A stretch of 64,000 nt of DNA from Halapricum desulfuricans (GCF_017094505.1 NZ_CP064787.1:2666001-2730000); one strand, 5' to 3'. Numbered from the stretch's first letter, positions 9,972 through 26,236 are shown. Numbers and translations are program-made. The notes: generated from the letters alone by a model not told the origin.

Positions 9972-10967
9972 ATGATCTCCAAGGGTTGCGAGCAGTGTGC
10001 GAAAGGCGGCAAGATGGTGATTTTCGTCTACGGGTACTGCGATCAGCGCGACTGTTTCTACTGCCCCCTTGGGGAGAACCGCAAGAACGTCACCGACGTC
10101 TACGCCAACGAGCGGAAAGTCGAGGAGGACGAGGACATCATCCGCGAGGCCGAGCGCATGAGCGCGATGGGGTCCTCGATCACCGGCGGCGAACCACAGG
10201 AAGTGATGGACCGGACGACCCGCTACATCTCGCTGCTGAAAGACGAGTTCGGCGATGACCACCACATCCACCTCTATACGGGGATCACCGGCGGTCGGGA
10301 GAACATGCGCCGGCTGGCCGAGGCCGGGCTGGACGAGATCCGCTTTCACCCGCCGCTCGAACAGTGGGGAGAGCTGCACGGCACCGAGTGGGAGGAGATC
10401 CTCTACATCGCCCGCGAGGAGGGAATCACGCCAGCCTTCGAAATTCCGGGCATCCGGCCTGAGACGGAGTTCCTCGAGTTCATCGACGAGGGAGCCGCCG
10501 AGTTCTGCAACGTCAACGAGTTCGAGATGTCTCACGGCAACTTCCGTCGGATGCAAGAGGAGGGCTACGAGCTCCGGGAGGGCCACATGAGTGCCGTCGA
10601 GAGCGGCCGCGAGGAGATCCTGGACGTGATGGGCGACCACGAGAAGGTCTACTTCTGTACGTCCGTGTTCAAAGACGCCGCACAACACCGCCGCCGGCTC
10701 AAGCGGATGGCCCGCAACGTTCGTCGTCCCTTCGACGAGATCACCGACGACGGGACGCTCGTCTACGGCAAGGCGACAGTCGATCCCGAGCGGTTCGAAG
10801 AGCTGGGCGTCCCGGAGGAGTACTATACCGTCAAGTCCGAGCACGTCGAGATCGCCTGGTGGCTCTTAGAGGAGATGGTCGACGAGGGCGACGTCGAACG
10901 TGGCGAGATCGTCGAGCAGTATCCGACGGTCGACGGAACCGTTGTTGAGCGGACACCAGTGGCGTAG
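9972..10967 (+). CDS. Radical SAM protein, COG2108-like
   Basis: The 331-residue protein opens MISKGCEQCAKGGK and carries three cysteines, C23, C28 and C31, in CDQRDCFYC, followed by PLG. This is a CX4CX2C spacing rather than the canonical CX3CX2C. SSITGGEPQ supplies the GGE motif that binds the SAM amino group. The layout resembles the uncharacterised archaeal group related to pyruvate formate-lyase activating enzymes. The frame is open upstream of 9972, but the chosen ATG gives the motif-bearing N-terminus. The substrate is unknown. Its last nine codons and stop are repeated twice downstream. Confidence 0.8.
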   Translation: MISKGCEQCAKGGKMVIFVYGYCDQRDCFYCPLGENRKNVTDVYANERKVEEDEDIIREAERMSAMGSSITGGEPQEVMDRTTRYISLLKDEFGDDHHIHLYTGITGGRENMRRLAEAGLDEIRFHPPLEQWGELHGTEWEEILYIAREEGITPAFEIPGIRPETEFLEFIDEGAAEFCNVNEFEMSHGNFRRMQEEGYELREGHMSAVESGREEILDVMGDHEKVYFCTSVFKDAAQHRRRLKRMARNVRRPFDEITDDGTLVYGKATVDPERFEELGVPEEYYTVKSEHVEIAWWLLEEMVDEGDVERGEIVEQYPTVDGTVVERTPVA

Positions 10968-11346
10968 CAGACGCCGAACGGCGTGAGGCGATTGACCGGA
11001 ACCGAGTGCAACGAGGTTCCGGCCTTTTTCCCCACGTTTTTGCGAGGAGTGGTAGCCGAGAGAAGCGAGGCTACCCGACGAGGAAAAAGTGGGACTGGGA
11101 CGGTCGTCGAGCGGACACCGGTGGCGTAGCAGACGCCGAACGGCGTGAGGCGGGTCACCGGAACCGAGTGCAACGAGGTTCCGGCCTTTTTCCCCACGTT
11201 TTTGCGAGGAGTGGTAGCCGAGAGAAGCGAGGCTACCCGACGAGGAAAAAGTGGGACTGGGACGGTCGTCGAGCGGACACCGGTGGCGTAGCAGACGCCG
11301 AACGGCGTGAGGCGGGTCACCGGAACCGAGTGCAACGAGGTTCCGG
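10941..11346 (+). repeat. 2.5-copy, 162-base tandem repeat containing the radical SAM gene tail
   Basis: The unit begins in the coding sequence for VVERTPVA and its stop, then continues through about 130 bases of 3' sequence. Copies start near 10941, 11103 and 11265. The third stops at 11346, exactly at the stop codon of the converging sugE gene. The three tails encode the same peptide. The real gene uses GTT-GTT and CCA, while both downstream copies use GTC-GTC and CCG. This accounts for the whole 10968-11346 gap, which has no other gene. Confidence 0.93.
11031..11093 (+). repeat. Two-stem 3'-region element behind the radical SAM gene (first copy)
   Basis: The outer arms CCCACGTTTTT and AAAAAGTGGG face each other. 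Inside, CGAGGAG and CCCGACGAG flank a perfect inner stem, GGTAGCC with GGCTACC, closed by a loop holding CGAGAGAAGCGA. A second identical copy lies at 11193-11255. The same plan with different but still complementary arm sequences occurs behind argF (19929-19988, 20095-20154) and in shortened form behind gyrA. It may act as a terminator or 3' processing structure; that is inference. Confidence 0.6.
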
Positions 11347-11670
11347 TCAATGTCCGCCGGACGTGAGGTTGAGACCGACGATCCCGACGACGATCACGCC
11401 GATGAAGGCGACGCGGGCGAGCGTCGCGGGCTCGTCGAGAAGCACGATTCCGAGTGAAGCGGTCCCGACAGCACCGATTCCGGTCCACACCGCATACGCC
11501 GTCCCGACGGGCAACTCCTGGACGGCGTGTGCGAGCAGGACCATACTGACGAGCAGTGCGGCGACAGTTCCGAGCGTCGGGAGCGGCTTCGAGAGCCCGT
11601 CGGAGTACGCAAGGCCGATCGCCCACGCGATCTCGAACAGTCCCGCAACGAACAGCACGATCCAGGACAT
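11347..11670 (-). CDS. sugE: Small multidrug resistance (SMR) family transporter, SugE-like
   Basis: The 107-residue protein is nearly all membrane, with four helices. It has the family glutamate in WIVLFVAGLFEIAWAIGLAYSDG (E13), the WTGIGAVGTASLGIVLLDEP signature in helix 3 and GIVGLNL in helix 4. SMR proteins form dimers that export cationic compounds or guanidinium using the proton gradient. The W-A-x-x-L-A-Y-S-D-G start and length fit the SugE/Gdx side, but substrate cannot be assigned. Its 3' end abuts the tandem repeat of the converging radical SAM gene. Confidence 0.88.
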   Translation of the reverse strand: MSWIVLFVAGLFEIAWAIGLAYSDGLSKPLPTLGTVAALLVSMVLLAHAVQELPVGTAYAVWTGIGAVGTASLGIVLLDEPATLARVAFIGVIVVGIVGLNLTSGGH

Positions 11671-19928: not shown

Positions 19929-20090
19929 CCAGCTTTTTCTCGTCGGGTCCGCTCGCTCCGCTCGCGAACCGCTCCTCCAAAAAGCTGGACCAAAAACCCG
20001 GTCGCTCGTCCCTCGCGACCGGTCAAGACGGCTCGGACAACCACACCAGCAATCCTTTCTGGGCATGCAGTCGATTCTCCGCCTGATCCG
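19929..20090 (-). repeat. Duplicated argF 3' end with 3' element (distal tail)
   Basis: This stretch repeats the end of argF at an offset of 166 bases. It holds codons for DQAENRLHAQKGLLVWLSEP and the stop (20023-20025), then about 90 bases of 3' sequence. Against the real gene, the first two codons differ synonymously (GAT-CAG here, GAC-CAA in the gene) and the rest of the coding part is identical. The outer stem CCAGCTTTTT/AAAAAGCTGG at 19929-19988 encloses the conserved CGAGGAG...CCCGACGAG core. Together with 20095-20154 it explains the 19858-20188 gap. Confidence 0.93.
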
Positions 20091-20094
20091 GCAG

Positions 20095-20154
20095 CCACCT
20101 TTTTCTCGTCGGGTCCGCTCGCTCCGCTCGCGAACCGCTCCTCGAAAAAGCTGG
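20095..20154 (-). repeat. Two-stem 3'-region element, argF proximal copy
   Basis: In the argF sense the arm CCAGCTTTTT faces AAAAAGGTGG with one mismatch in the outer five pairs. Inside lie CGAGGAGCGGTTCGCGAGCG and the closing CCCGACGAG. The inner stem pairs GGTTCGC with GCGGACC (one G-T wobble) around CGAGCGGAGCGA. The structure follows the real argF stop by about 35 bases and is the counterpart of the element behind the radical SAM gene. Confidence 0.6.
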
Positions 20155-20188
20155 ACCAAAAACCCGGTCGCTCGTCCCTCGCGACCGG

Positions 20189-21091
20189 TCAAGACGGCTC
20201 GGACAACCACACCAGCAATCCTTTCTGGGCATGCAGTCGATTCTCCGCTTGGTCCCAGACGATTGCGTTGTCGCTCTCGATGACCTCGTCGGTCACCTCT
20301 TCGCCGCGGTGGGCCGGCAGACAGTGCATCAGCTTCCGGTCGGCGACGAGGTCGCTCGTCACCTGGAAGCCATCGAACGCCTGTAGTTTCGCCTCGCGTT
20401 CGTCCTCCTCGCCCATGCTGACGAACACGTCCGTGTAGACGAGGTCCGCGTCAGCGACGGCGACCTCAGGGTCGTGCGTCGTCTCCGGCGCGGTGCCGAG
20501 TTCGTCGGCCCGTTCGAGCACGTCGTCGTCGATACCGTAGCCCTCGGGCGTCGCGACGGTGAGATCGAGCCCGACCATCGCAGCGCCGAGGACGAACGAC
20601 TGGGCGACGTTGTTGCCGTCGCCGACCCACGCGACCCGGACCTCCTCGAACCCGCCGAACTGCTCGCGGATCGTCAGCAGGTCCGCCAGCGTCTGACAGG
20701 GGTGAGCCTCGTCGGTCAGTCCGTTGACGAACGGGACGGTCGCGTACTCGGCGAGTTCCTCGGCGTCCTCGTGGTCGAACAGCCGCGCCATGATGACGTC
20801 GACGTACCGCGAGAGCGCTCGCGCGGTGTCTTTGACCGGCTCGCCGTGGCCGAGGTGGATGTCGTCCGGACCGAGGAAGATCGCGTGACCGCCCAGCTGG
20901 GTCATCCCCGTCTCGAAGGAGACCCGCGTCCGGGTGCTCGGCTTCTCGAAGATCATCCCCAGCGTCTGGTTGTCGAACGGTTCGGTGTCAGCCCCGGCCT
21001 CGTGAGCGGCCTTCAGCTCGGCCGCGCGGTCGAGGACAGTCTCCAGTTCGTCGGGCGTGAGGTCGTCGATGTCGAGCAGGTGGCGTGTCAT
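20189..21091 (-). CDS. argF: Ornithine carbamoyltransferase
   Basis: The 300-residue enzyme converts ornithine and carbamoyl phosphate to citrulline. It has the carbamoyl-phosphate signature FEKPSTRTRVSFE (about residues 49-61), the HPCQ motif in DEAHPCQTLADL and the ornithine loop HCLPAHRGEEV. It is the last gene of the minus-strand arginine cluster, and its start overlaps the lysK stop by four bases. A displaced copy of its last 22 codons and 3' region lies just downstream. Confidence 0.96.
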   Translation of the reverse strand: MTRHLLDIDDLTPDELETVLDRAAELKAAHEAGADTEPFDNQTLGMIFEKPSTRTRVSFETGMTQLGGHAIFLGPDDIHLGHGEPVKDTARALSRYVDVIMARLFDHEDAEELAEYATVPFVNGLTDEAHPCQTLADLLTIREQFGGFEEVRVAWVGDGNNVAQSFVLGAAMVGLDLTVATPEGYGIDDDVLERADELGTAPETTHDPEVAVADADLVYTDVFVSMGEEDEREAKLQAFDGFQVTSDLVADRKLMHCLPAHRGEEVTDEVIESDNAIVWDQAENRLHAQKGLLVWLSEPS

Positions 21092-22206: not shown

Positions 22207-23336
22207 GTGTCTGTCAGCAGGTCCGCGAGGGCTTCGACCACCCGATCGGCCTCTGATTCGGTGATCGTCAGCGGCGGGAGCAGCCGGATCACGGTCCGGC
22301 CCGCCGGCAGCGCCAGGATCTGGTGTTCGAGCGCCAGTTGCTTCAGGTAGCGGTTCGCACCCCGCTTGACCTCGATACCGATCATCAACCCCTCGCCGCG
22401 CACGTCACGCACGTCGTCGCCGAGCGCGGCCTCGAGTTCCGCCCGGAGATACTCGCCGACCTCACCAGCGTGGGCGGGGATCTCTTCATCGACCATCGTC
22501 GAGACCGTCGCGCCCGCGGCGGCGGAGATGACCGGCCCGCCCGAGAACGTCGAGGCATGGCTGCCGTAGTTCTCCGCGACCCAGTCGCGCACGAGCGTCG
22601 CGCCGACCGGGAAGCCGTTGCCCAGTCCCTTCGCCGAGGTGAGCATGTCGGGCACGACGCCGATCTGTTCGGCGGCCCACAGCGTCCCGGTCCGGCCCAT
22701 GCCAGTCTGGACCTCGTCGAAGATCAGCGCCGCTCCGGCTTCCGCTGTGATCTCGCGGGCGTCACGCAGGAACTCCTTTGTCGCGGGGTTGATCCCGCCC
22801 TCGCCCTGGACCGGTTCGACGATGAACGCCGCGGTCTCCTCGTCGACGGCCTCTTCGAGCGCTTCGCTGTCGTTGTAGGGGACGAACTCCACGTCGCCGA
22901 TCAGCGGCTCGTAGGGCTTCTTGTACTTGTCCTTCCAGGTCGTCGCCAGCGCGCCCATCGTCCGACCGTGGAATCCCTGCATCGTGGCGACGATCTTCGA
23001 GTCGCCGGTCGCGCTCCGGGCGAACTTGAGCGCCGCTTCGTTGGCCTCGGTCCCGGAGTTACACAGCCAGGTGTTGTCGATGTCGCCCGGCGCTGTCTCG
23101 GCGAGCAGTTCGTACAGCGCCGTCCGCTGGGCGTTCGGATAGGAGGCCTGCACGTAGGTGATCTTCTCGAACTGCTCGGTGACCGCCTCCCGGACGGCGT
23201 CGTGGCCGTGTCCCAGCGGGACGCAGGCGTACGAGGCCCCCATGTCCAGATACTCGGTCCCAGAGTCGTCGTAAACGTACGCTCCATCGCCGCGTTCGAT
23301 CCGAATCGGCTTTTCGTTGAAGACGAATCCGCTCAT
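22203..23336 (-). CDS. argD: [LysW]-glutamate semialdehyde/aminoadipate semialdehyde aminotransferase
   Basis: The 377-residue class III aminotransferase makes LysW-ornithine from the semialdehyde. The PLP lysine sits in LTSAKGLGNGFPVGA, preceded by the aspartate of IFDEVQTGMGRTG. NSGTEANEAALKFAR is the PLP phosphate segment. It equals LysJ/ArgD in the LysW-dependent route. Its ATG overlaps the argB/lysZ stop, and its stop overlaps lysK. Specificity for ornithine over lysine synthesis is inferred from the argGHF neighbours. Confidence 0.93.
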   Translation of the reverse strand: MSGFVFNEKPIRIERGDGAYVYDDSGTEYLDMGASYACVPLGHGHDAVREAVTEQFEKITYVQASYPNAQRTALYELLAETAPGDIDNTWLCNSGTEANEAALKFARSATGDSKIVATMQGFHGRTMGALATTWKDKYKKPYEPLIGDVEFVPYNDSEALEEAVDEETAAFIVEPVQGEGGINPATKEFLRDAREITAEAGAALIFDEVQTGMGRTGTLWAAEQIGVVPDMLTSAKGLGNGFPVGATLVRDWVAENYGSHASTFSGGPVISAAAGATVSTMVDEEIPAHAGEVGEYLRAELEAALGDDVRDVRGEGLMIGIEVKRGANRYLKQLALEHQILALPAGRTVIRLLPPLTITESEADRVVEALADLLTDT

Positions 23337-24292
23337 GGTTCCTCCTGTTGGTCTGCTGTGGCAAGTGCGCTCGCATACACGTGTGTTCCGGCCCCGCCCA
23401 GCGCCGACGTGATCGGTTCCTCGGCGTTGGCATCGGCGATCACGGCCTCGGGCGTGCCGCCCTCTAAGGCCTCCTCGACGGCCATGATCTTCCGGCCCAT
23501 GAAGCCCTCGGCCGCGTCTTCCAGTGTCGCCCAGCCGTCGGGCGTCTCGACGCGCCCGATCAGCGTCTCGGGGTCGTCCGGGTCCTCGTAGACGCCTTCG
23601 ACGTCGGTCAGCAACACGAGCGTCGCTTCGAGCGCGCCCGCGATGGCTGCCGCCGAGCGATCAGCGTCGGTGTTGACTGCGACGATCTCGCCGTCGTCGC
23701 TGTCTCGCGGCTCGTCGCCGCTCGACGTTTCGGAGGCGCGTGACGCCTCCCTACCCGCCATGGGTGGTCCGGCCACGGGGGTGTAGCCATCGTCGAGCAG
23801 CGATTCCAGCAGCTCGGCGTTGACCCGCTCGATCGTCCCCGAGTGATCGCCGCGCCTGATCTTCTTCTTGCCGTCTTCGAGGACGCGGACGGCGGACTTG
23901 CGCGGGCCGTACAGCAACTTCCCGTCGACGCCGTTCAGCCCGACCGCGTCGACGCCCTGGCTCTGCAGGCCGGCGACGAGTCGCGTGTTGAGGTGACCGA
24001 AGACCATCTCGAAGACCTCCATCGTCTCCGCGTCGGTGAACCGACCGACGACCCCGGACGGCGTCTCGACGTATTCGGGCTCGATCCCCATGCGTTCGAG
24101 CGTCTCGTCGACTTTCGTCGAGCCGCCGTGGACGACGACGACGTCTTCTCGCGGGCCGTGCCCGCTCGAACGGCCCGAGGCGCTCTGCGCCTCGCTACCC
24201 TGCTCGCGGAGGCGCGCCACGTCCGCCAGCGCTCCCTCCGGATCGACCGCACGGGCACCGCCGACTTTGACGACCACCGTCACTCTGACCAC
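23333..24292 (-). CDS. argB: [LysW]-glutamate/aminoadipate kinase with two in-frame inserts
   Basis: This 319-residue amino-acid kinase (ArgB/LysZ) phosphorylates the carrier-bound glutamate. It shows VVVKVGGARAV at the start, VVVHGGSTKVD, and NTDADRSAAAIAGAL plus LLTDVEGVY at the nucleotide site. The protein is about 40 residues longer than LysZ proteins usually are. The excess is two Ser/Gly/Glu-rich inserts at residues about 31-48 and 179-199, encoded by related two-hairpin DNA segments (24146-24200 and 23700-23756). They fall between core strands, so function may be kept. Confidence 0.92.
   Translation of the reverse strand: MVRVTVVVKVGGARAVDPEGALADVARLREQGSEAQSASGRSSGHGPREDVVVVHGGSTKVDETLERMGIEPEYVETPSGVVGRFTDAETMEVFEMVFGHLNTRLVAGLQSQGVDAVGLNGVDGKLLYGPRKSAVRVLEDGKKKIRRGDHSGTIERVNAELLESLLDDGYTPVAGPPMAGREASRASETSSGDEPRDSDDGEIVAVNTDADRSAAAIAGALEATLVLLTDVEGVYEDPDDPETLIGRVETPDGWATLEDAAEGFMGRKIMAVEEALEGGTPEAVIADANAEEPITSALGGAGTHVYASALATADQQEEP
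23700..23756 (-). repeat. In-frame two-hairpin insert, argB second site
   Basis: Read in the argB sense, GGAGGCG-TCACG-CGCCTCC forms one stem and GCGGC-GACGA-GCCGC the next. The insert encodes GREASRASETSSGDEPRDS. Over 43 aligned bases it matches the first argB insert without gaps, and its second hairpin is one base different from the lysX insert. It adds codons without breaking the frame. Confidence 0.7.
24146..24200 (-). repeat. In-frame two-hairpin insert, argB first site
   Basis: In the argB sense the stems are CGAGGCG-CAGAG-CGCCTCG and GCGGGC-ACG-GCCCGC. It encodes GSEAQSASGRSSGHGPRE between LREQ and DVVVVHGG. Against the second argB insert, both stems carry changes on both arms that keep the pairing. 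Confidence 0.7.
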
Positions 24293-24296
24293 CCCG

Positions 24297-25334
24297 TCAT
24301 GGTGCCCCCACGGGATGGAGTCCCTGGAACTGCAGGCCGGCAGTCTCCTCGAGACCCAGCGCGATGTTGGCGGCGTGGACGGCCTGGCCGGCCGAGCCTT
24401 TCATCATGTTGTCGATGGCCGAGAAGACCACCAGCCGCTCGTTGCCGGGATCGAGTTCGAAGCCGACCTCGGCTTTGTTCGTCCCCGCGACGGCTTTCGG
24501 TTCGGGATAGCGGTAGACGCCACCGCCGCCGGCGACCAGTTCCACGAAGGGTTCGTCCTCGTAGGAGCCGCGGTAGGCCCCCCAGAGATCACCCTTCGAG
24601 ACCGGCTCGTCCGGGAAGACGTGCGCGGTCGCGCTCGCGCCGCGGATCATGTCGACGGAGTGGGCCGTAAAGGAGACGCCCGCGCCGAGGAACTGCTCGA
24701 TCTCGGCCTCGTGGCGGTGGCCCGTCGGCGCATAGGGACGGACGACGCCGCTGCGCTCGGGATGGGAGGAGGCCGGGCCGCCACCGGCACCGCCCTCCGA
24801 AGAGCCGACCTTCACGTCGACGACAATCCGCTCGTCGCCGGCGAGCACGCCGTGCTCGAAAAGCGGCAGCAAGCCGAGGATCGTCGCGGTGGCGTTACAG
24901 CCCCCGGAAGCGATCAGGTCCGCGCCCTCGAGGTTCTCGCGGTTGAGCTCCGGCAGGGCGTACTCGCTCGTCTCCAGCAGCTCGGGCCGGCTGTGGCCGT
25001 CGTACCACTCGTCGTACTGGGCCTCCGTCTCGAGGCGGAAGTCCGCCGAGAGGTCGACCACGGTGTCGGCCGCGTCCCGGAAGTCGTCGATGCGCTCCAT
25101 CGAGACGCCGTGTGGCGTCGCCGCGAACAGCACGTCGACCGATTCGAGGTCCTCCGGGTCGGAGAATCGCAGATCCAGCCCCCGGAGATTGGGATGGGAG
25201 TGGCCGATCGTCTTGTTTTCCTTCGAGCGACTCGTCGCCTGTTCGATCTCGAACTCCGGGTGGCCAGCGAGCAGGCGGAGCAACTCGCCGCCGGTGAATC
25301 CAGTGCCGCCGACGACGCTTGCCGTGTAAGTCAC
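24297..25334 (-). CDS. argC: [LysW]-glutamyl phosphate/aminoadipyl phosphate reductase
   Basis: This 345-residue NADPH-dependent reductase acts after the kinase to give the carrier-bound semialdehyde. The Rossmann start is ASVVGGTGFTGGELLRLL. The catalytic cysteine lies in ASGGCNATATILGLLPL, and the histidine in the HSVDMIRG/HRHEAEIEQFL region. It overlaps lysX by four bases upstream and is five bases from argB downstream. It equals LysY/ArgC of the LysW pathway. Confidence 0.95.
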   Translation of the reverse strand: MTYTASVVGGTGFTGGELLRLLAGHPEFEIEQATSRSKENKTIGHSHPNLRGLDLRFSDPEDLESVDVLFAATPHGVSMERIDDFRDAADTVVDLSADFRLETEAQYDEWYDGHSRPELLETSEYALPELNRENLEGADLIASGGCNATATILGLLPLFEHGVLAGDERIVVDVKVGSSEGGAGGGPASSHPERSGVVRPYAPTGHRHEAEIEQFLGAGVSFTAHSVDMIRGASATAHVFPDEPVSKGDLWGAYRGSYEDEPFVELVAGGGGVYRYPEPKAVAGTNKAEVGFELDPGNERLVVFSAIDNMMKGSAGQAVHAANIALGLEETAGLQFQGLHPVGAP

Positions 25335-26236
25335 TGCGAGTTCACCTCGGCTTTCGTCTCCAGCCAGTCGACCACGGCGGCCGGTACGTCCACGTCGACG
25401 ACGTCGTTCAGCGCCTTGAACTCGACCGTGTGGTTGACCTCGTGGACGGTGTAGCCATCGGCTCGCGGCTCATCGCCGCTCGCGTCCCGGGCGTCGCTGC
25501 GCGACGCCCCCGTCTCCATCAGATCGATACCCAGCAACCCGCCACCGACCGCCTCGCTCGCACGCTCGACGAGGTCAAGCGCCTCGTCGTCGAGTTCGAA
25601 CTCGGCCGTCTCGGCACCCTTCGCGGCGTTTGTCAGCCAGTGATCCGACGAACGGACCATCGCTGCCACCGGTTCGCCGTCGGTCGCGAGCACGCGGATG
25701 TCCCGACCGGGCTTGTCGACGAACTCCTGGACGTAGAAGATCTTGTGTTCGTAATGCCCGAGCGTCTCCTTGTGCTCGAGGACCGCCTCGGCGGCGTCGC
25801 GGGTGTCGAGTTTCGCCATCAGCCGCCCCCACGAGCCGACGACGGGCTTGAGCACGCACGGATAGCCGAAGTCCTCGACAATCTCTAAGGCGGCGTCCTT
25901 GGTGAACGCCACCTCGGTATTGGGCGTCGGGACGCCCGCCGCCTCCAGCGCGAGGCTGTTTTTCACCTTGTCGGCGCAGATCTCGGCCGTCTCGGGCGCG
26001 TTGACGATCGGGACGTCGTAGGCCTGAGCGAACTTGCTCGCATAGAGGCTCCGCGAGGTCGCGAGACAGCGATCGACCAGCAGATCCACGCCCTCGAAAT
26101 CCTCGGGCGGGTCCGACAGCGAGAATCGCTGCTTGCGCACGTCGATCTTCGTGACCTCGTGGTCGCGCTCGCGCAGCTCGTTCAACAGGAGCTTCTCGTC
26201 GCGACGGATGCGCGAGTACAGCAGGCCGACGTTCAT
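25331..26236 (-). CDS. lysX: Glutamate/2-aminoadipate--LysW ligase (ATP-grasp)
   Basis: The 301-residue ATP-grasp ligase joins the amino group of glutamate (or aminoadipate) to the LysW C-terminal glutamate. MNVGLLYSRIRRDEKLL matches the family N-terminus and is preceded by a GGTGA ribosome site, so I prefer 26236 to the ATG at 26278 that overlaps the lysW stop. Conserved features include GYPCVLKPVVGSWGRLMAKL and, near the end, VHEVNHTVEFKAL for Mg-ATP. An in-frame insert (25460-25512) adds about 17 residues (GASRSDARDASGDEPRADG) before that last motif. Confidence 0.94.
   Translation of the reverse strand: MNVGLLYSRIRRDEKLLLNELRERDHEVTKIDVRKQRFSLSDPPEDFEGVDLLVDRCLATSRSLYASKFAQAYDVPIVNAPETAEICADKVKNSLALEAAGVPTPNTEVAFTKDAALEIVEDFGYPCVLKPVVGSWGRLMAKLDTRDAAEAVLEHKETLGHYEHKIFYVQEFVDKPGRDIRVLATDGEPVAAMVRSSDHWLTNAAKGAETAEFELDDEALDLVERASEAVGGGLLGIDLMETGASRSDARDASGDEPRADGYTVHEVNHTVEFKALNDVVDVDVPAAVVDWLETKAEVNSQ
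25460..25512 (-). repeat. In-frame two-hairpin insert in lysX
   Basis: In the lysX sense GGGCGTCG-CGCAG-CGACGCCC is followed by GCGGC-GATGA-GCCGC. The second hairpin and its GAG flanks match the argB second insert with one change. The first stem is one pair longer and differs on both arms. It encodes GASRSDARDASGDEPR, sharing SGDEPR with the argB insert. Confidence 0.7.

Follow-up and report, generated by a model that had tools for sequence, protein, structure and literature searches.

Introduction

Rickettsia and Wolbachia provide the best-known examples of palindromic repeats that code in frame for protein. The Rickettsia palindromic elements (RPEs) and their Wolbachia relatives are found between genes and also in frame inside conserved genes (PMC10969869, PMC3767692, PMC2229807); RPEs are ∼105–150 bp in length, carry terminal inverted repeats of ∼12 bp and fall into several families (PMC2229807). 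RPEs are the closest known kind to the haloarchaeal repeat described here, which likewise lies in frame in many unrelated, conserved host genes as well as in non-coding DNA, recurs at the same sites among relatives and is tolerated as an extra peptide. By description it is set apart from them by its length (∼48–57 bp), its two tandem hairpins, its G+C-richness, its acidic peptide and its confinement to one archaeal class; assignment to RPEs proper was rejected on size and on the terminal inverted repeats, which were not matched. The haloarchaeal element has the same behaviour as the RPE kind, with a different anatomy, domain and scale.

Coding palindromic repetitive DNA has also been described for an archaeon, Methanocaldococcus jannaschii (Suyama, 2005, cited in PMC2229807). 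As represented in the citing review, it resembles the present element in being repeat DNA of an archaeon whose open reading frames have become part of protein genes, and differs in being described from a single methanogen. REPs are 20–40 bp in length, are extragenic by name and have a constant end tetranucleotide (PMC3733652). The haloarchaeal element shares with the GTAG/CGTC REPs and their RAYT (Y1) partners the character of a short dispersed palindromic repeat, and some of its copies start with GTAG; it was nevertheless rejected as a REP, since its end motif is inconstant and it has no Y1 association. MITEs of haloarchaea have been mentioned for Halobacterium and Haloquadratum. In anatomy alone the element also recalls the double-hairpin elements of fungal mitochondria, which are small, G+C-rich, composed of two tandem hairpins and thought to be mobile. 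We know of no sequence link between these and the haloarchaeal element, and to our knowledge their definition includes neither an acidic peptide read in frame nor a strict rule on the frame; the likeness carries no evidence of kinship.

No Rfam family was matched at E values up to 1. The original prediction, made from the DNA sequence of the locus, had considered such repeats unreported in haloarchaea, and no haloarchaeal report of coding double-hairpin repeats was located in the open-licence literature. The element apparently represents a new, class-wide family of protein-coding palindromic repeats.

Three inserts in argB/lysZ and lysX

The source genome (G000; other genomes are numbered likewise and individual copies carry L numbers) is haloarchaeal and consists of a single contig of 2 940 338 bp, from which the window, the whole stretch of 64 000 nucleotides that was analysed, was taken. 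The original prediction had described three inserts in argB and lysX, each forming two hairpins with compensating changes. All three are present on the minus strand (∼51–57 bp; Table 1), and the peptides and stem sequences had been quoted correctly, the peptides in the order A, B, C and the stems in the order B, A, C. The two genes had been called neighbours; they do belong to one cluster but are not adjacent, as argC/lysY lies between them, a gene that gave no match to the covariance model R1 (described below) when the 64 kb window was scanned. The stem cores of hairpin 2 are as quoted, but the hairpin is slightly larger than claimed: an additional outer stem (TC..GA) and a GA/GA internal mismatch enclose the GCGGC-loop-GCCGC core. 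The closest solved structures to the argB/lysZ product are 3wwm and 3u6u.

Table 1 Positions of the three inserts, their hairpins and the genes of the cluster, counted from the first base of the window
Feature	Position	Strand	Assignment or context	Peptide or hairpin	Covariance-model match (bits)
argB/lysZ	23333–24292	−	Amino-acid kinase family, PF00696 (E = 9.3e-33); carries inserts A and B		
Insert B	23699–23755	−	In argB/lysZ	GREASRASETSSGDEPRDS	73.7
Insert B, hairpin 1	23732–23750			GGAGGCG-TCACG-CGCCTCC	
Insert B, hairpin 2	23703–23725			TC-GA-GCGGC-GACGA-GCCGC-GA-GA	
Insert A	24143–24199	−	In argB/lysZ	GSEAQSASGRSSGHGPRE	69.1
Insert A, hairpin 1	24176–24194			CGAGGCG-CAGAG-CGCCTCG	
Insert A, hairpin 2	24147–24169			TC-GA-GCGGGC-ACG-GCCCGC-GA-GA	
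argC/lysY	24297–25334	−	Between argB/lysZ and lysX; named by position and sequence		
lysX	25337–26236	−	ATP-grasp, PF22626 and PF08443; carries insert C		
Insert C	25457–25513	−	In lysX	GASRSDARDASGDEPRAD	66.0
Insert C, hairpin 1	25490–25508			GGCGTCG-CGCAG-CGACGCC	
Insert C, hairpin 2	25461–25483				

The family pattern, a perfect 7 bp hairpin followed by CGAGCGG..CCGCGAG, occurs at three places in the window, which are inserts A, B and C. A chance origin of the three is ruled out because the pattern was absent from all 40 dinucleotide-shuffled windows. In the covariance-model search of the whole genome the inserts scored E values of 2.8e-13 to 1.6e-11, all three being among the training copies of the model.

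Occupied and empty sites

Inserts A and B of argB are present in G000 and G001 and missing from G002, G003 and G005, the proteins of which are 84–93% identical. The empty sites are clean at the DNA level: insert A appears in G001 as an additional 54 bp between GGT and GAAGAC, with GAAGAC on either side of it, and insert B as an additional 51 bp. Insert C of lysX is present in G000, G001 and G002 and missing from G003 and G005. As judged from these alignments, A, B and C are lineage-specific insertions for which close congeners retain empty sites. The original prediction had proposed a comparison with the ArgB/LysZ and LysX proteins of relatives; the inserts are missing from close homologues and are not conserved across haloarchaeal ArgB and LysX.

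The argB and lysX loops have taken independent insertions in other genera as well. A related double hairpin is found at argB site B in G020 and related double hairpins are found in the lysX insert loop in G016 and G022. Site B is filled in Haloarcula salina and empty in Haloarcula vallismortis; it is filled in Halorientalis pallida and Halorientalis persicus and empty in Halorientalis LUM.68. A decayed copy lies at site A in Halomicrobium katesii. The argB gene of G015 contains a two-hairpin loop insert of other sequence (L050; CCGAGG/CCTCGG followed by CCAGAACGC/GCGTTCTGG), which hints at further families with the same layout.

Further loci, at which empty sites were located by DNA searches with the two flanks joined, gave corresponding patterns. 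At L098, a class I aminoacyl-tRNA synthetase gene of G000, G001 and G005 carries a young insertion nested within an older double hairpin; the older double hairpin is present alone in G002 and neither is present in G003 and G004. G002 has a copy at L169, where the sites of G000, G001 and G005 are empty, and at L181 copies are found in G003 and G004, the other four congeners having empty sites. L162 is intact in G002, has suffered a partial in-frame deletion in G000 and G001 and is empty in G003, G004 and G005, while L163 is intact in G003 and empty in G004, other loops taking its place in G000, G002 and G005. The L104 copy is decayed in G001 and the L109 copy in G000. Orthologous copies are intact, decayed or absent, which is the pattern expected of a tolerated mobile repeat. 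A loop of chorismate synthase is filled in five of the six congeners and also in G029 and G038, which belong to other families, and many genera between these have loops without the element; by this distribution the loop would either have been used more than once or have received exchanged copies. At L106 (1501–1602; G000:C1:641734 onward) the loop of hairpin 2 contains another hairpin and looks like a nested insertion.

Size and distribution of the family

A BLAST-type search with a single copy recovered few relatives because the stems change in pairs, and a covariance model (R1) was therefore built from six copies. Copy counts per genome are lower bounds, as the search scores a limited number of candidates in each genome. 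The source genome contains at least 17 R1 matches at E ≤ 0.01, and a copy that was not part of the model (L099) was also recovered. Of 39 relatives, 31 gave matches, as did 235 of the 292 Halobacteria genomes searched (65 of 77 genera), so that a distinct family is present in about four fifths of a sample taken across an entire archaeal class. Sampling of the phylum gave 43 matching genomes among 294, every one of them in the order Halobacteriales. Outside the class R1 matched none of 241 genomes, a control that is partly compositional as far fewer first-look candidates arose there.

Copies within one genome are no more alike than copies from different genera (0.69 versus 0.68). Within- and between-genome similarity gave no sign of recent local bursts of amplification, and the equality of the two values implies a family that is old or freely exchanged and is not in a burst. 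Carriage by viruses was considered and set aside after a search of the IMG/VR viral contigs with one exact pattern, the 21-base core, returned no exact match.

In the source genome the non-coding copies L101 (1392–1571), L107 and L112 stand directly after stop codons and have longer, variable stems with loops such as GAACGAAGTGAG; they may conceivably act as 3′ UTR elements or terminators. The double hairpin of L107 (1501–1730; G000:C1:838111–838340) follows the stop codon of a gene near ribosomal protein genes and runs on into four near-identical tandem units of ∼54 bp, each composed of GCGAGCGGCGAAGCCGCGAG and then GTGGACGACGAGTGGGAGTCCAC hairpins.

Hairpin covariation and position in the proteins

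The letters of the stems change in step. Across 98 distinct copies, 98.9% of the base-pair cells are paired compared with 82.0% after shuffling, a figure biased upwards because the structure guided the alignment and related copies are among those aligned. Changes on both sides were seen in 11 of 14 pairs, and the observed pairing was reached in none of 500 shuffles and in no slid register. Selection acting on the hairpin may explain this covariation, as may templated correction of the palindromes.

Models of ArgB and LysX were generated with AlphaFold (mean pLDDT 82.8 for each, with a confident core). Modelling had been put forward in the original prediction as a check on the position of the inserts; all three sit in low-confidence loops between secondary-structure elements (pLDDT of about 47–56).

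Reading frame and host genes

The reading frame was assigned for 100 hits with flanking DNA by scoring each of the two flanks for codon usage in all six frames. The flanks agreed on one frame in 63 hits, some of which are orthologues of each other, and in 62 of these the element lay on the sense strand in frame 0. A further 12 weaker coding cases were all in frame 0 and the remaining 25 hits were non-coding or unclear (for example L097, L101 and L103). Chance-level hits (E of 0.04 to 1), which served as an internal control, fell in mixed frames. The two-hairpin pattern recurs genome-wide in both coding and non-coding DNA with strict use of the frame, which supports the expectation of a family of palindromic repeats that can insert into genes and leave them intact, in the manner of bacterial intragenic repeats.

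The hosts belong to about 30 unrelated protein families, mostly housekeeping, and include chorismate synthase, LeuRS, IleRS, GluRS, PheRS, GatE, glutamate synthase, S4e, deoxyhypusine synthase, SufB-type proteins and TruD.

In frame +2 stops occur in 49% of copies, the other five frames being open in nearly every copy. Frame 0 is free of stops and has a mean net charge of −0.106 per residue, the other five frames being net positive (+0.08 to +0.26 per residue); it is the only frame of the six that is both acidic and stop-free, and its consensus peptide, DSEARSASDRSSGDEPRDD, is acidic and hydrophilic. The simplest reading of the frame rule is selection for an acidic, salt-compatible loop, which would be purifying selection rather than targeting. 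There may be a target preference for acidic-loop codons in frame 0, because about three quarters of the hits are coding, more than expected from random insertion and a six-fold frame filter, although the model used in the search was built from coding copies.

Mobility and alternative explanations

The reading preferred here, with a probability of about 0.8, is a dispersed non-autonomous DNA repeat of ∼48–57 bp with two hairpins, termed a double-hairpin palindromic element, that extends through most of the class Halobacteria. It lands both in genes and in intergenic DNA. Within genes, only sense-strand copies that share one frame and have a net length in multiples of three persist, probably because frame 0 alone gives a stop-free, acidic, hydrophilic peptide; a halophilic protein would carry this peptide as a flexible loop. 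After insertion the copies decay by substitution and in-frame deletion. Most likely the element is moved in trans, the hairpins probably serving as single-stranded substrates for the acting enzyme; alternatively, mobility might arise from templating errors in replication or repair.

Comparison with a classical MITE, which has terminal inverted repeats and a target site duplication, gave mixed observations. The stems of the element pair within each half and not end to end; direct repeats of 5–6 bp, suggestive of a target duplication, were found at two sites (GAAGAC at argB site A and AGCGA at L181) and none was found at the nested insertion L098.

Two more specific forms of the preferred explanation were considered. 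The main mechanistic rival to movement in trans is templated or microhomology-mediated insertion from existing hairpin copies during replication or repair, with no dedicated transposase. Short matches between the ends of the element and its targets (GCGAG, GAC), a net insertion length that varies between 42 and 54 bp, the occurrence of tandem and nested arrays and the lack of an enzyme association speak for it; the consistent end-to-end layout and the class-wide spread fit a dedicated mechanism equally well, and templated insertion is regarded as a possible, tentative account.

The second form is a MITE or REP of the IS200/IS605 or RAYT (Y1) type, with the two hairpins as recognised ends of an element moved as single-stranded DNA. 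The two-hairpin anatomy resembles the left-end plus right-end arrangement of IS200/IS605, some copies start with GTAG and Y1 genes are present in 201 of the 292 class genomes. GTAG is not constant, however, the left ends of copies including GTAG, GATAG, GACAG, GAGCG, GGGAG and others, and no mobilising enzyme emerged when association with Y1_Tnp was tested across the class: G003 has at least 29 element matches yet no Y1_Tnp member, Y1 genes are as frequent in element-free genomes (15 of the 20 listed), and the hairpins beside the one Y1 gene of the source genome look unlike the element. A Y1 transposase was rejected as a partner because it does not track the element across the class. Absence of a Y1 gene today is compatible with past action in trans; on balance a Y1 origin is judged unlikely.

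Selection for RNA structure, in a functional RNA or regulatory element at defined places in mRNA, would account for the strong covariation of both hairpins and for the several non-coding copies directly after stop codons. It sits poorly with the scattered presence of the element and the empty sites in close relatives, with the decay of orthologous copies (L104 in G001, L109 in G000 and the orthologues of L163), with host genes that have no pathway in common and with the lack of an Rfam match, and is considered very improbable. That no mobile DNA is involved, the inserts being acidic Ser/Gly-rich halophilic loops with palindromic-looking GC-rich codons or convergent insertions into tolerant loops, is scarcely credible: the sites are variable loops and argB of G016, G018 and G007 has other acidic loop insertions, but DNA homology (hairpins, GA/GA mismatch and spacing) extends across unrelated genes and non-coding DNA, covariation occurs at amino-acid-changing positions and the shuffled windows contained no family pattern.

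A stronger version of the preferred reading is that of a still-active element kept tolerable in genes, in which the sense frame always yields an acidic loop, insertion favours acidic surface-loop codons in frame and an undescribed hairpin-using route is followed. This version is doubtful; if the element were indeed active and built for tolerance, it would repeatedly supply essential haloarchaeal proteins with loop insertions.

Among the hosts are aminoacyl-tRNA synthetases, enzymes of amino-acid biosynthesis and a ribosomal protein, and the genera are culturable. The movement of a 50 bp repeat, the cause of the covariation (selection versus templated repair) and the contribution of selfish DNA to the acidic loops found in halophilic proteins can now be tested. 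Alignments of haloarchaeal proteins call for caution, as such loops are often insertions and not homologous sequence.

Other repeats

A separate dispersed repeat (..GTCGTTTTTCCCCACGTTTTT..) was observed at L100 (1555–1690; G000:C1:1275289–1275424); a query of 1654–1780 gave many matches of ∼80–130 bp in all six genomes of the genus. The window itself contains a 161-base direct repeat (19929–20255; 98% identical), which adjoins and overlaps the 3′ end of the gene at 20189–21091, and three tandem units of 162 nucleotides (10935–11420; 95 and 67% identical to the first); the unit length is a multiple of three, and the units possibly belong to a repeat protein.
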